From the NCBI RefSeq assembly GCF_009663395.1, contig NZ_QKNW01000001.1, positions 1,984,001 through 2,048,000 on the forward strand: a DNA stretch of 64,000 nucleotides, given 5' to 3'. This stretch comes from Halosegnis longus. GTDB taxonomy: Archaea; Halobacteriota; Halobacteria; Halobacteriales; Haloarculaceae. The notes under the pieces are model-generated. The model was given only the letters and a program-made list of their open reading frames with translations. It had not been told where the DNA came from and made no database searches. A program made the translations under genes and the position numbers. Of the stretch, positions 5,193-10,064 are shown piece after piece (within the stretch, counting starts at the first letter, position 1; each line of letters begins with the position of its first letter).

Positions 5193-5493
5193 GGCTGGGT
5201 TTGGCTTTGGATACTGTCTCTGGTCTCTTCTTCTGGGTTGCTCGGACCACGCTACTGCACGACCCTGATTTACCAAGCAACTGAGGCGGTGGCCTGACGC
5301 ACCGCGCCCGTGGCGCGTGTGCGTCGTGGGGAACGGTTGGTGCGGTCCGTCCTCCCCTCGTGGCGCGACTCGACCGCTGCGGTCGCGGTGCGGTTTCCCC
5401 GAGGCCAAGCCATCGGAGTGGTCGCGGTGCTGTCGGAGTCGAACTCATCAGCGCGGTGCTGTCGAAACCGAAGCCAAACGCGCACAGCCTCAC
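5190..5493. repeat. Intergenic element with inverted terminal repeats and internal hairpins (MITE-like or structured)
   Basis: The 375-base gap between 5193 and 5567 holds no convincing gene. Its ends are inverted: GTGAGGCTGGGTTTGGCTT at the left matches, with small gaps, the reverse complement of AAGCCAAACGCGCACAGCCT plus CAC at 5471-5493. Inside are a 13-bp stem with one bulge and a 3-base loop at 5296-5325 (GACGCACCGCGCC / GGCGCG-T-GTGCGTC), a CGACCGC-T-GCGGTCG palindrome at 5371-5385, and a repeated CGCGGTGCTGTCG-like unit at about 5423 and 5452. No transposase is present. It could be a miniature transposable element, a dispersed haloarchaeal intergenic repeat, or a structured RNA. Confidence 0.55.
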
Positions 5494-5567
5494 TGCCACA
5501 CGAAAACAATCTAGACACAGATGCCCGTCTCCGACACGCCTAAACACGCGCCCGAACGACCACAGGT

Positions 5568-7964
5568 ATGCAGTATCACGAGGCGGCGACGTGGCTGTTC
5601 GACCTCCGGCGACACTCCCCGCGCACGGGCGTCGAACACACGCGTCACCTCCTCGATTCGCTCGACTCGCCCGACGAGAGCTACGCAGTCGTCCAAATCG
5701 CCGGCTCGAACGGCAAAGGCTCGACGGCCGCTCTCTTGGACCGCGTGCTCAGAGAGGCCGGTCTCGACGTGGGACTGTACACCTCGCCACACCTCTCGGA
5801 CGTGCGCGAACGCGTGCAGGTGAACGGCCGAAAGATGCCGAAACGCGCGCTCGCCGAGTACGTCGAGACGGTCGAACCGTACGTGAGGAATCGCGGCGCT
5901 GCCGGCGAGTCGCCGACCTTCTTCGAGACCGTCACCGGCATGGCGCTGTGGGAGTTCGACAGACAGGACGTTGACGTGGCGATCCTCGAAGTCGGTATCG
6001 GCGGGAAACACGACGCCACCTCCGCGACGAGTTCCGTCGCCAGCGCGGTCACGAGCGTCACGCTCGAACACGCCGACCTGCTCGGGGGGACGGAGGCGGA
6101 AATCGCCCGCGACAAGGCCCACGTCGCGACGGACCGCCCGCTCGTCACCGCAACCACGGGCGAGGCGTTCGACGCGGTCCGCGACCACACCGACGGGAAC
6201 GTGCTCACGGTCGGCGGGGACGGACGCGACGTAACTACGCGCTACGAGGGTCGCGTCGGCATCGAGAGCGACATCTCACTCGCCGGTCCGGACTGGGCGG
6301 TCGAGACGCGACTCGCGATGCTCGGGGCACACCAGGCCGAGAACGCGGGCGTCGCGGCCGCACTCGCCAGACAGGTCGGCGACGAACTCGACACGGACGT
6401 GTCGACCGACGACCTCGCGCGGGGACTCCGGAGCGCCCACTGGCCCGGTCGCTTCGAGGTGATGAGCCGCGAGCCGCTGGTCGTGCTCGACGGCGCACAC
6501 AACCCCGGCAGCTGCGAGACGCTCACCGACACGCTCGGTGAGTTCGACTACGACGACTGCCATCTCGTCGTCGGCGCGATGAGCGACAAGGACCACGCCG
6601 GGATGGCCGCCGCGCTCCCCGAGACCGACGCGGTGTACACCTGCCGGCCCGACTTCGCGCGCGCCGAACGGCCGGAGGTGTTGGCCGAATCGTTCCACGA
6701 CGCGACGGCGTTCGACACCGTCGGCGCGGCCGTCGAGGCGGCGCTCGGTGCCGCCGGCCCGTCGGATGCGGTCGTGGTCTGCGGCTCGCTGTTCGTCGTC
6801 TCCGAGGCGCGAGACCGCTGGACTGCGACGGCGACGCCGAAGCGCATCCGTGACGCCGACGACGCCCGCGCGGCCCTCGATGGGGCGGACGTGCCAGCGT
6901 CCGAACAGCAGCCGGCCGAGCTGGTCCACGAGACCCGGACCCTGACCGTCCGGCCCGCGCAGGCGCGGCGACTCGACACCGCGATGGCGGCCGTGGGCGG
7001 GAGCTGTTCCGTCTCGGGACTCGACGCGCAGGCCCGCGAGCCGGTTTCGGTCGTCCTGTCGGGGACGACCGCGGAGTTCGACGCGCTCGATGCGCGACTG
7101 CGAGAGACCGACCCCGTGCTCGCCGACCGCGTGGCCGACGACGCCGCGACCGATGTCGACTACCCCTGGACCGACCGCACCGCAGTCATGGGCATTCTGA
7201 ACGTGACGCCCGACTCATTCCACGACGGCGGCGAGTACAACGCCGTCGACGCCGCGGTCGAGCGCGCCGAGGAAATCGTCGCCGAGGGCGCGGACATCAT
7301 CGACGTGGGCGGCGAATCCACGCGCCCGGGCGCAGAGCCGGTTCCCGTCGACGAGGAAATCGACCGCCTCGTTCCGGTCATCGAAGAAATTCGCGACCTC
7401 GATGCGCTCATCTCCGTGGACACGCGGCGGGCCGAGACCGCACGCGCGACCCTCGATGCCGGCGCGGACATCATCAACGACGTGTCCGGACTGGCGGACC
7501 CGGGGATGCGCTTCGTCGCCGCCGAGTACGACGTCCCCGTCGTCGTGATGCACTCCATCAACGCCCCCGTCGACCCCGACGTGACCGTCGAGTACGACGA
7601 CGTGGTGAGTGACACGATCGCCCAGCTCCGCGAGCGCATCCTGCTCGCCGAGCGCGCCGGTCTTGCTCGCGAGCAGATTATCGTCGACCCCGGCATCGGG
7701 TTCGGCAAGTCGGCGACAGAGAGCTTCGAACTGTTAGACCGCACGGGTGAGTTCGCCGCGCTCGGCTGTCCGGTCCTCGTGGGCCACTCCCACAAGTCGC
7801 TGTTCGAGCGCGTCGACCACGCGGCCGAGGACCGCTACGAGGCGACCGTCGCCGGCAGCGCCATCGCGGCCGACCGCGGGGCCGATATCGTCCGCGTGCA
7901 CGACGTGGCGGGAAACGTCGCCGCCGTCCGCGTCGCGGAAGAGACCCGCACTCAGGGCTCCTGA
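5568..7964 (+). CDS. FolC-FolP fusion: folylpolyglutamate/dihydrofolate synthase plus dihydropteroate synthase
   Basis: A 798-residue bifunctional folate enzyme. The N-terminal half is a Mur-ligase-type FolC, with the ATP loop AGSNGKGSTAAL near residue 42, YTSPHLSDVRERVQVNG and LDGAHNPGS. The C-terminal part from about residue 540 is dihydropteroate synthase, with MGILNVTPDSFHDGG, GGESTRPGAEPV, DPGIGFGKS and the closing GHSHKSLF. Fusion of these two activities is established in haloarchaea. A linker of about 110 residues between the domains is not part of either classical enzyme. The ATG at 5568 gives a normal FolC start. It converges on the next gene with a 13-base overlap. Confidence 0.95.
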   Translation: MQYHEAATWLFDLRRHSPRTGVEHTRHLLDSLDSPDESYAVVQIAGSNGKGSTAALLDRVLREAGLDVGLYTSPHLSDVRERVQVNGRKMPKRALAEYVETVEPYVRNRGAAGESPTFFETVTGMALWEFDRQDVDVAILEVGIGGKHDATSATSSVASAVTSVTLEHADLLGGTEAEIARDKAHVATDRPLVTATTGEAFDAVRDHTDGNVLTVGGDGRDVTTRYEGRVGIESDISLAGPDWAVETRLAMLGAHQAENAGVAAALARQVGDELDTDVSTDDLARGLRSAHWPGRFEVMSREPLVVLDGAHNPGSCETLTDTLGEFDYDDCHLVVGAMSDKDHAGMAAALPETDAVYTCRPDFARAERPEVLAESFHDATAFDTVGAAVEAALGAAGPSDAVVVCGSLFVVSEARDRWTATATPKRIRDADDARAALDGADVPASEQQPAELVHETRTLTVRPAQARRLDTAMAAVGGSCSVSGLDAQAREPVSVVLSGTTAEFDALDARLRETDPVLADRVADDAATDVDYPWTDRTAVMGILNVTPDSFHDGGEYNAVDAAVERAEEIVAEGADIIDVGGESTRPGAEPVPVDEEIDRLVPVIEEIRDLDALISVDTRRAETARATLDAGADIINDVSGLADPGMRFVAAEYDVPVVVMHSINAPVDPDVTVEYDDVVSDTIAQLRERILLAERAGLAREQIIVDPGIGFGKSATESFELLDRTGEFAALGCPVLVGHSHKSLFERVDHAAEDRYEATVAGSAIAADRGADIVRVHDVAGNVAAVRVAEETRTQGS

Positions 7965-8251
7965 ATCGTCCACTCGTCGGTCGCGACCGCTGATTCGAGC
8001 GGACTGCCGTCTTCCTCCGCCATGTTCGTGAGCGCAATCTGGACCGCGCGCCGCGGGGCGAACACGCGATTCGTGAGCTCCGCGGTCGTGACGTGGACCG
8101 TGCCGCCGCCTTCCTCCTGCAGGACGCGCGCGAGTTCCTGCTGGAGTGCGCTACAGGTGTCGAGATAGCTGTCGCGTGCCGTCGCTGGGTCGTCGGTGTC
8201 GAACGCGTCCATCAGCGTCTCGGGGTCGATTTCGGGCGGAATAGCTCCCAT
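7952..8251 (-). CDS. Small haloarchaeal protein of unknown function
   Basis: This acidic 99-residue protein has no Cys, membrane segment or signal peptide. It has a helical N-terminal half (PETLMDAFDTDDPATARDSY, then a Leu/Gln-rich helix) followed by a GGGTVHVTTAELTNRV stretch that may be a strand-turn-helix. It overlaps the 3' end of the folate fusion by 13 bases in convergent orientation. Its ATG lies 31 bases after the stop of the upstream SQR-like gene on the same strand, so the two may share a transcript. I do not recognise the family. Confidence 0.65.
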   Translation of the reverse strand: MGAIPPEIDPETLMDAFDTDDPATARDSYLDTCSALQQELARVLQEEGGGTVHVTTAELTNRVFAPRRAVQIALTNMAEEDGSPLESAVATDEWTIQEP

Positions 8252-8281
8252 ACGCGTCCGTCGGCCCCCGCGGAGAAAAGC

Positions 8282-9529
8282 TTAGACGCCCAGCAGATAC
8301 CCCCGGAGCCACACCTGCCAGTAGAGGCGCGGAATCGCCTCCACGTCTGCCAGCCACCCCACGCGCGACTCCACGGCCGGGAACATCGCGCCGTCGTAGT
8401 CGTACCCTGCGAGAATCGCCTTTCCTTCCTGTGTGAGCAGGGGACAGGCCGCGAACCCGTCGTAGTGCGACTCGTACGCGCGCCCCGCCGCGTCGGCGGT
8501 GAGGTTGTCCGCGAGCGCGGCGGCCTGCTTGCGCGCGGCGGCGGCCGTCTTCGAGGTCGGTGCGTCGGTGCAGTCGCCGAGCGCGTACACCCGGTCGTGC
8601 GTGCGGTGGCGCATCGTCTCGCGGTCGACGGCGACGTACCCCTCCTCGCTCGCTGCGGTCAGGGGCGACTCGTCGGTCAGGACGGTCGGACACCGCTGTG
8701 GCGAGACGGGGAGATAGAGGTCGTACGCGAGCGTTCGGCCGTCCTCGCTCTCGATTCGCCGGTCGGCCACCTCGTCGACGACGAAGCCACCCTCGTACCG
8801 TACGCCCCGCGCAGCGAACACGTCGGCGAGTTCGGCGTCGTAGCGTGCCTTCTTCCCGGTCCCGAAGACGTGGTCGTCCGGACCGGCGAGGGTCACGTCA
8901 CACGGGACACCGTGGTCGGCGAGATAATCCTCGGCGAGCAGGGCGGCCTTCGCCGGCGCGCCGCCACAGGAGACGCTCCCCTCGGGTTCGGTGACGACGA
9001 CCCGGAGCGGACGCGTTGTCGTCGGTGTCGGGAGCGTCGGCTCGGTTCCCGTCGTCGCGACCCCGCCGTCGGCCGCGACCGGCGGCTCCGCGTCGGCTCC
9101 GTTCGCCCTCTCGACCAACGCGTCGAGCGTCTCGCCGAGTGCGCGTGCCCCCTCGGGCCGGTAGAACGGGTAGACGTGTGGCTCGCCCGCCCACGGGCCG
9201 GCGACGGTCTCGTGGCCGAGCGCGACGACGAGCCGGTCGTACTCGATGTACCCGCCCTCCGTCGCGACCGTCCGTTCGTCTGGGTCGATACCCGTCACGG
9301 TCGCCTCGCAAAACCGCACGTCGGCACGCAGGTACTCGCGCACGTCGCGGGTGTGGGCGTCGATGTCGGCGTGGCCGAACGGGTGGAGATAGAAGGCCGG
9401 CTGGTAGCGGTGGGTCGGCGTCCGGTCGAGGACGACCACCTCGGCCAGCCCGCCGAGTTCGCGGTCCAGTCGGTTCGCGACCATCGTCCCGCCGGCTCCG
9501 CCGCCGAGGACGATGACACGCTCAGTCAT
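8282..9529 (-). CDS. Sulfide:quinone oxidoreductase-like flavoprotein
   Basis: This 415-residue FAD enzyme of the two-dinucleotide-binding-domain family begins with the Rossmann motif VLGGGAGGTMVANRL. Two Cys-containing motifs match sulfide:quinone oxidoreductases rather than type II NADH dehydrogenases: SCGGAPAKAALLAEDYL in the centre, and YDGFAACPLLT near the C-terminus (human SQRDL has CAGAPQK and TSCPLVT). These two Cys hold the sulfide-derived sulfur next to FAD. YALGDCTDAP is the second FAD contact. The start is ATG at 9527-9529, so the glycine motif lies at the usual position. The gene is divergent from cyanase. It could be a paralogue acting on another reductant. Confidence 0.8.
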   Translation of the reverse strand: MTERVIVLGGGAGGTMVANRLDRELGGLAEVVVLDRTPTHRYQPAFYLHPFGHADIDAHTRDVREYLRADVRFCEATVTGIDPDERTVATEGGYIEYDRLVVALGHETVAGPWAGEPHVYPFYRPEGARALGETLDALVERANGADAEPPVAADGGVATTGTEPTLPTPTTTRPLRVVVTEPEGSVSCGGAPAKAALLAEDYLADHGVPCDVTLAGPDDHVFGTGKKARYDAELADVFAARGVRYEGGFVVDEVADRRIESEDGRTLAYDLYLPVSPQRCPTVLTDESPLTAASEEGYVAVDRETMRHRTHDRVYALGDCTDAPTSKTAAAARKQAAALADNLTADAAGRAYESHYDGFAACPLLTQEGKAILAGYDYDGAMFPAVESRVGWLADVEAIPRLYWQVWLRGYLLGV

Positions 9530-9614
9530 GTAAAGAGATACGTGTCTTTCGCCGGAAAAGGTGGTGGCGAACATCTCCACCGGCTTTCATGCCCGTACCG
9601 GCCGAACGACGCGT

Positions 9615-10064
9615 ATGCTCTCGCGAGCCGACGCCACGGCACGACTGACGGAGGCAAAACACGAACAGGGGCTCGATTTCGTCGACCTCGCGGACGCAAT
9701 CGACCGCGACGAGGTGTGGACGGCCTCGCTCGTCTTCGGCGACGTGAGCGCGAGCGAGACGGAGGCCCGCGAGCTGTGTGCGCGACTCGGTATCGAGGAC
9801 GAGGCGGTCGTCGATGCGCTCCAGCGGGAACCGTACAAGGGCGACGAGGAGGCGACGATTCCCTCGGACCCGATGTTGTACCGGCTCTACGAGATTCCAC
9901 AGGTGTACGGCGACGCCATCAAGGCCTGCGTCCACGAGGAGTTCGGCGACGGCATCATGTCGGCCATCGACTTCGAGTGTCACGTCGACAGAATCGACCA
10001 CGACGACGGCGACCGCGTCCGAATCACGTACGAAGGGAAGTTCCTCCCGTACAAGAAGTGGTGA
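9615..10064 (+). CDS. cynS: Cyanate hydratase (cyanase)
   Basis: The enzyme decomposes cyanate with bicarbonate to ammonia and CO2. The 149-residue product has an N-terminal helical domain and the highly conserved C-terminal catalytic domain: MLYRLYEIPQVYGDAIKACV, then EFGDGIMSAIDF. By alignment with the E. coli enzyme (156 residues) the catalytic triad is Arg90, Glu93 and Ser116, all present. It starts at ATG 9615; an upstream in-frame ATG at 9561 would add 18 atypical residues. It is divergent from the SQR-like flavoprotein across 85 bases. That pairing would suit a cell meeting both sulfide and cyanate, for example from thiocyanate breakdown (inference). Confidence 0.95.
   Translation: MLSRADATARLTEAKHEQGLDFVDLADAIDRDEVWTASLVFGDVSASETEARELCARLGIEDEAVVDALQREPYKGDEEATIPSDPMLYRLYEIPQVYGDAIKACVHEEFGDGIMSAIDFECHVDRIDHDDGDRVRITYEGKFLPYKKW

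Follow-up and report, generated by a model that had tools for sequence, protein, structure and literature searches.

A sulfide:quinone oxidoreductase homologue and a cyanase encoded as a divergent pair in Halosegnis: a putative, jointly inherited detoxification cassette

The window analyzed here is a stretch of 64,000 nucleotides from Halosegnis longus (G000:C1:1984001-2048000; the genome, G000, has 2.77 Mb). It contains a divergent pair of genes, one coding for a flavoprotein and the other for a cyanase, which is bordered by folCP and a glycosyltransferase gene. The genes are arranged as follows:

5568 to 7964, plus strand: folCP, a folate synthesis fusion gene (the name is our reading), conserved throughout the family; left border of the insertion site
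7952 to 8251, minus strand: ORF of 99 aa, no assigned family, in the gap between folCP and SQR; found in G000, G314 and G391 only
8282 to 9529, minus strand: homologue of SQOR-type sulfide:quinone oxidoreductase (SQR), 415 aa
9530 to 9614: divergent spacer between the start codons of SQR and cynS, 85 bp
9615 to 10064, plus strand: cynS, cyanase (cyanate hydratase), complete, 149 aa
10065 to 11117, minus strand: glycosyltransferase gene (GT4-like), bordering the insertion site on the right

Positions, orientation and spacing of the two central genes are as given in an earlier sequence-only reading of the window. Beside the pair, there is neither a cyanate importer nor a regulator gene.

The product of cynS is confirmed by sequence comparison as a full cyanase (CynS, EC 4.2.1.104), as had been proposed, and is predicted to catalyze the bicarbonate-dependent decomposition of cyanate. 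It scores above the curated cutoffs of TIGR00673 (154.3 over 113.3), NF002773 (172.4 over 150) and PF02560, and it also matches PF21291 in Pfam. The YRLYE and MSAIDF motifs are aligned, and the Arg, Glu and Ser that we take to be the catalytic triad are all present. Cyanase is rare in haloarchaea, since PF02560 is encountered in only 10 of 391 genomes from the class, and the window cyanase as query finds a match in only 8 of 146 genomes from the family.

The flavoprotein had been called SQR-like because of two Cys motifs, and this assignment stands. In a phmmer search of the PDB, the top four of 27 sequences are chains of human SQOR (5.5e-40). A profile built from 11 haloarchaeal SQR sequences matches human SQOR over the whole protein at 4.7e-81, and the next protein follows only at 4.4e-34. 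General family models are less specific: Pfam assigns the PF07992 domain alone (64.6 bits, cutoff 26.1), and among the NCBIfam models, no equivalog exceeds its cutoff, the best being the type III SQR model with 191.9 of the 525 bits needed. The N-terminal dinucleotide-binding domain for FAD carries its GxGxxG motif at residues 9-14. Two cysteines are of special relevance:

8966 to 8968, minus strand: Cys188 codon; the residue belongs to the motif CGGAP and is aligned to the first of the two redox cysteines in human SQOR
8444 to 8446, minus strand: Cys362 codon; the residue belongs to the motif ACPLLT and is aligned to the second of these redox cysteines

In human SQOR, the corresponding motifs are CAGAP and SCPLVT. 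Counted in the alignment, the matching positions of the human chain are 178 residues apart, as are Cys201 and Cys379, the redox cysteines of SQOR as numbered in PMC11039317. Cys188 and Cys362 are invariant in the alignment of the 11 haloarchaeal sequences and also in one of 15 sequences, the copy from G342, which is in two pieces, having been excluded from both. Between about residues 137 and 175, the proteins from the genus carry an insert with many Thr, Pro and Ala residues, which is missing from 11 other haloarchaeal SQRs in the alignment. A structure model computed from a two-sequence alignment reached a mean pLDDT of 39.8. Based on the sequence comparisons, the product of 8282-9529 is confirmed as a homologue of type II (SQOR-like) SQR, for which sulfide-dependent quinone reduction is predicted. 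It resembles the human mitochondrial enzyme (PDB 6oi5, 6mo6) in the full-length profile match and in both aligned redox cysteines; it differs in being archaeal, in having the additional insert at 137-175 (about 35-45 residues) and in that its activity is predicted.

Five of the six genomes from the genus code for a cyanase, and the same five have the SQR. In all five, the genes are divergent neighbors between folCP and the glycosyltransferase gene, with spacers of 85, 89, 89, 90 and 89 bp. The sixth genome (G391) has neither gene and retains folCP, the 99-aa ORF and the glycosyltransferase gene. The outer flanks of G131 and G392 are unlike those of the window, while the pair and its two border genes are retained. 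Both genes are under constraint, with dN/dS values of 0.16-0.28 for SQR (6 pairs from the genus, dS 0.17-0.80) and 0.13-0.36 for cynS (10 pairs, dS 0.25-0.76). These dS values are similar to or slightly lower than those of the flanking glycosyltransferase gene (0.21-1.04, 10 pairs). Synonymous divergence like that of the flank, combined with dN/dS of at most 0.36, fits a single old insertion followed by vertical descent under purifying selection. In G342, a deletion that also changes the reading frame has taken out the stretch of SQR around Cys188, with an intact cynS beside it (L050 10379-11522); this is a draft genome and an assembly fault is possible. If real, the damage would mean that the two partners may be separable.

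The expectation that the genes are linked in relatives is thus borne out inside the genus, for all five genomes having either gene, and fails outside it. At E<=1e-30, the window SQR finds matches in 45 of the 391 class genomes. Both proteins co-occur in four class genomes, all from the genus, where 1.15 would be expected by chance (Fisher p 0.019, a value that ignores kinship). The six other cyanase-bearing genomes (G300, G384, G179, G240, G242 and G334) lack such an SQR at this threshold. Under a relaxed threshold, all 12 genomes tested yield distant flavoproteins (about 26-40% identity), none of them next to a cyanase. Among the best 80 cyanase loci of the genome collection, an SQR is located beside cynS in one, from Halobacteriales archaeon QH_7_66_36; this check used tblastn at E<=1e-6 with flanks of at most 7 kb, and as many contigs are shorter, absence is weak evidence. 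Around the related cyanases of G240, L076 and L077, no SQR occurs within the 14-20 kb examined.

Some of these related loci have peculiarities of their own. The cyanase of G240 (L056 9795-10296), which is near the type of the genus, has its active-site region broken by a stretch with hairpin-like repeats. Loci L076 and L077 (about 5300-7450; Nanosalinarum J07AB56 and archaeon A07HR60) have near-identical cyanase regions with an adjoining ORF resembling triosephosphate isomerase, and this near-identity suggests transfer or a mixed assembly.

Haloarchaeal cyanases are also found in a second setting. In six genomes (L051-L055 and L218, from G384, G300, G179, G242, G334 and G407), the cyanase gene is adjoined by a formate/nitrite-type (FNT) channel (PF01226) in all six cases and by DabA (PF10070) in five. 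The enzyme is the same, with 49-54% identity to the window cyanase, but it belongs to a separate clade, and its neighbors are the channel and inorganic-carbon genes rather than SQR. This channel is missing from the genus, where only two of six genomes have a match, with 23% identity and at a distance from the pair. The cluster of cynS, FNT channel and DabA/DabB (about 8300-15300 in L051-L055, and L218) resembles a module for cyanate use that is supplied with bicarbonate, as cyanase needs bicarbonate. The titles and abstracts covered by our literature search contain nothing on DabA or an inorganic carbon transporter together with cyanase.

The usual setting of haloarchaeal SQR is different as well. 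A survey by eye of 13 other loci (L057-L069) revealed many SQR genes near those for DUF1641, rhodanese, rhodanese-metallo-beta-lactamase, cytochrome bd and peroxiredoxin proteins (DUF1641 and two rhodanese proteins were confirmed by Pfam). These SQRs have the same cysteines and, for the seven compared, 41-48% identity to the window protein, but in contrast to the latter they never adjoin a cyanase. The SQR of the genus has departed from the usual DUF1641/rhodanese/cytochrome bd setting. Bacterial cyn operons (cynTSX of Escherichia coli, cynFABDS of Pseudomonas) share the cyanase core with the window and, according to PMC6627978, contain a carbonic anhydrase, a cyanate transporter and a regulator, all of which the pair lacks, having SQR instead.

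The border genes indicate how the pair may have arrived. folCP is present in 36 of the 37 family genomes searched. Outside the genus, its surroundings were examined in 18 family genomes; none has the pair near folCP, and 14 have a homologue of the glycosyltransferase there, which directly adjoins folCP in, for example, G394 from a sister genus (41 bp) and G050. Because sister genera have the two border genes without the pair, it was most simply inserted as a unit, and entry of SQR and cynS into the genome as one unit is most likely. On whether G391 lost the pair or never had it, the trees disagree. It groups with G000, G314 and G342 in the concatenated tree (86%) and the folCP tree (59%), which implies loss of the pair; in the glycosyltransferase tree (67%), it is basal, which allows for a late gain. 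Windows of 1 kb across the pair have a G+C content of 0.65-0.72, inside the range of the surroundings. A viral source was considered and dismissed, as no relative of the SQR was found in viral contigs (nine stretches fit a pattern, none was confirmed). In the plasmid search, no accession is common to the best 15 of 25 SQR matches and the best 15 of 89 cyanase matches listed.

The junction between folCP and the glycosyltransferase gene (7965-10064 in the window; L199, L207, L210 and L216) is variable and contains different single genes across genera. It has gained about 1.5 kb in G342, where two extra ORFs are located between the glycosyltransferase gene and cynS (L050 8459-9768), one of which begins with a P-loop-like sequence (GPSHSGKST).

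The spacer was inspected for signals in the five genomes with the pair:

9556 to 9559, minus strand: AAAA (TTTT on the minus strand), candidate TATA-like element of SQR; starts 27 bases upstream of the gene in all five spacers
9585 to 9587, plus strand: TTT, candidate TATA-like element of cynS; its end is 28-29 bases ahead of the start codon in each of the five spacers
9568 to 9572: CGAAC, left arm of a palindrome; between AAAA and TTT in all five spacers
9560 to 9581: repeat GGTGG (9560-9564) and CCACC (9577-9581); in G000 and G314 only

Leaderless transcripts are usual in haloarchaea, and we consider AAAA and TTT to be candidate TATA-like boxes of such transcripts. The GGTGG/CCACC repeat had been suggested as an operator. 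It is present, but beyond G000 it is found only in G314, the closest relative, which speaks against this role. At least one 5-bp inverted repeat is found in 73% of shuffled spacers; the window spacer has five, the shuffled mean being 1.6, and 4.8% of shuffles reach five. The palindrome with the CGAAC arm (14 bp) is perfect only in G131, where it reads CCGAACGCGTTCGG (p 0.014 against shuffles). Six of seven positions pair in G342 and G392 and five of seven in G314; in G000, the right arm is lost to a 4-bp alignment gap, and pairing is no better than chance. As it is perfect in G131 alone and not significant once the testing of five spacers is considered, it was rejected as a conserved operator. 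A loose version of the pattern occurs 3-8 times per genome of the genus (34 match rows in total, counting the self-complementary G131 site on both strands) and is thus not a rare regulon mark. The promoter layout makes shared regulation of the two genes plausible; the motifs give no proof of it.

Joint function was originally suggested in terms of thiocyanate, which would be split into sulfide and cyanate so that SQR and cyanase clear the products. This chemistry is coherent, and a type II SQOR could also form thiocyanate from cyanide (PMC11039317). A search of G000 for a thiocyanate hydrolase (PF02979, TIGR03887), however, found no such gene; PF02979, which covers nitrile hydratase alpha and thiocyanate hydrolase gamma subunits, is also missing from G314, G342 and G391. 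G131 and G392 have one PF02979 gene each, adjoined by a fused beta subunit; this gene scores 261.0 bits with TIGR01323 (cutoff 249.85) and only 158.9 of the 291.45 needed with TIGR03887, so that the NCBIfam result and the neighboring genes identify a cobalt-type nitrile hydratase, and the assignment as thiocyanate hydrolase was rejected. Two haloarchaeal loci (L167 8914-9960, L168 9092-10138) code for a nitrile hydratase alpha subunit whose C-terminal domain resembles the beta N-terminal/accessory protein. In addition, PMC6504805 describes the cyanate pathway as yielding sulfur, not sulfide, and cyanase as an unreliable marker of this pathway. On the hydrolase search and this pathway chemistry, the thiocyanate route is not supported, and we regard it as very improbable, although the genome may code for a thiocyanate dehydrogenase (TcDH).

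A related proposal replaces thiocyanate by cyanide: SQR would transfer sulfur to cyanide, forming thiocyanate, and cyanase would clear cyanate arising from cyanide oxidation. It draws on the in vitro use of cyanide as a sulfur acceptor by human SQOR (PMC11039317) and on the induction of cyanase activity by cyanide in Pseudomonas pseudoalcaligenes, even though cyanate is not an intermediate of the cyanide route of that organism (PMC6627978). As nothing in the sequence points to it directly and it is a matter of conjecture whether hypersaline archaea encounter cyanide, we consider this proposal improbable. Also unlikely, in our view, is the possibility that the pair handles one substrate or stress that frees sulfide and cyanate together in the cell. 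Thiocarbamate, which would arise from carbonyl sulfide and ammonia, is a candidate. If this were true, the pair would be the first dedicated unit joining the removal of cyanate and sulfide under one regulator.

The more serious question is whether the genes belong together at all. SQR and cynS may be passive neighbors, two useful but unrelated detoxification genes that arrived on one piece of DNA, at a junction of convergent genes that tolerates insertions, and that have not yet been split. We regard this as possible, if doubtful. There is only one event in one genus, the junction accommodates other single genes in other genera, an additional ORF is present in some genomes of the genus and not in others, about 1.5 kb were added in G342, and the SQR of that genome looks damaged beside an intact cynS. 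Against it are the joint absence of both genes from G391, the divergent spacing of 85-90 bp and the promoter layout kept in five of five genomes while the outer flanks of G131 and G392 are rearranged, and the purifying selection acting on both genes. On the gene identities, the catalytic cysteines, the joint presence at one insertion site, the selection and the conserved promoter layout, we build the reading that SQR and cynS form a co-inherited two-gene detoxification cassette, gained horizontally, with activities, shared regulation and a physiological signal that are inferred; we judge the case for it to be evenly poised. Counting against this cassette are the single insertion event, the absence of the pairing outside the genus, with free-standing cyanase relatives (G240, L076, L077), the variable junction, the damaged SQR of G342 and the lack of a transporter or regulator gene next to the pair. 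As all five pair-bearing genomes descend from one insertion, they represent one event, not five.

In such a cassette, the SQOR-type flavoprotein would oxidize sulfide via a persulfide relay between Cys188 and Cys362; the quinone of the membrane would take up the electrons, and a small acceptor the sulfur. In vitro, the human type II enzyme can also use cyanide as this acceptor and then forms thiocyanate (PMC11039317). Cyanase would convert cyanate and bicarbonate to ammonia and CO2. The pair would have been gained jointly, in the gap between folCP and the glycosyltransferase gene and near the origin of the genus, and would have been retained as a unit with back-to-back promoters about 85-90 bp apart. 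We speculate that it serves one stress response to small toxic anions (sulfide, cyanate and possibly cyanide) rather than catalyzing consecutive steps of a thiocyanate pathway.

In the literature covered, which includes few subscription journals, there is no description of a gene pair of cyanase and sulfide quinone reductase. The pair represents known enzymes in a new partnership, most likely for detoxification and with a putative shared chemistry; it is a local oddity rather than a new kind of system. Haloarchaea offer two contrasting, testable settings of cyanase: with SQR, pointing to detoxification, and with a channel and a carbon-concentrating module, pointing to the supply of nitrogen and bicarbonate.
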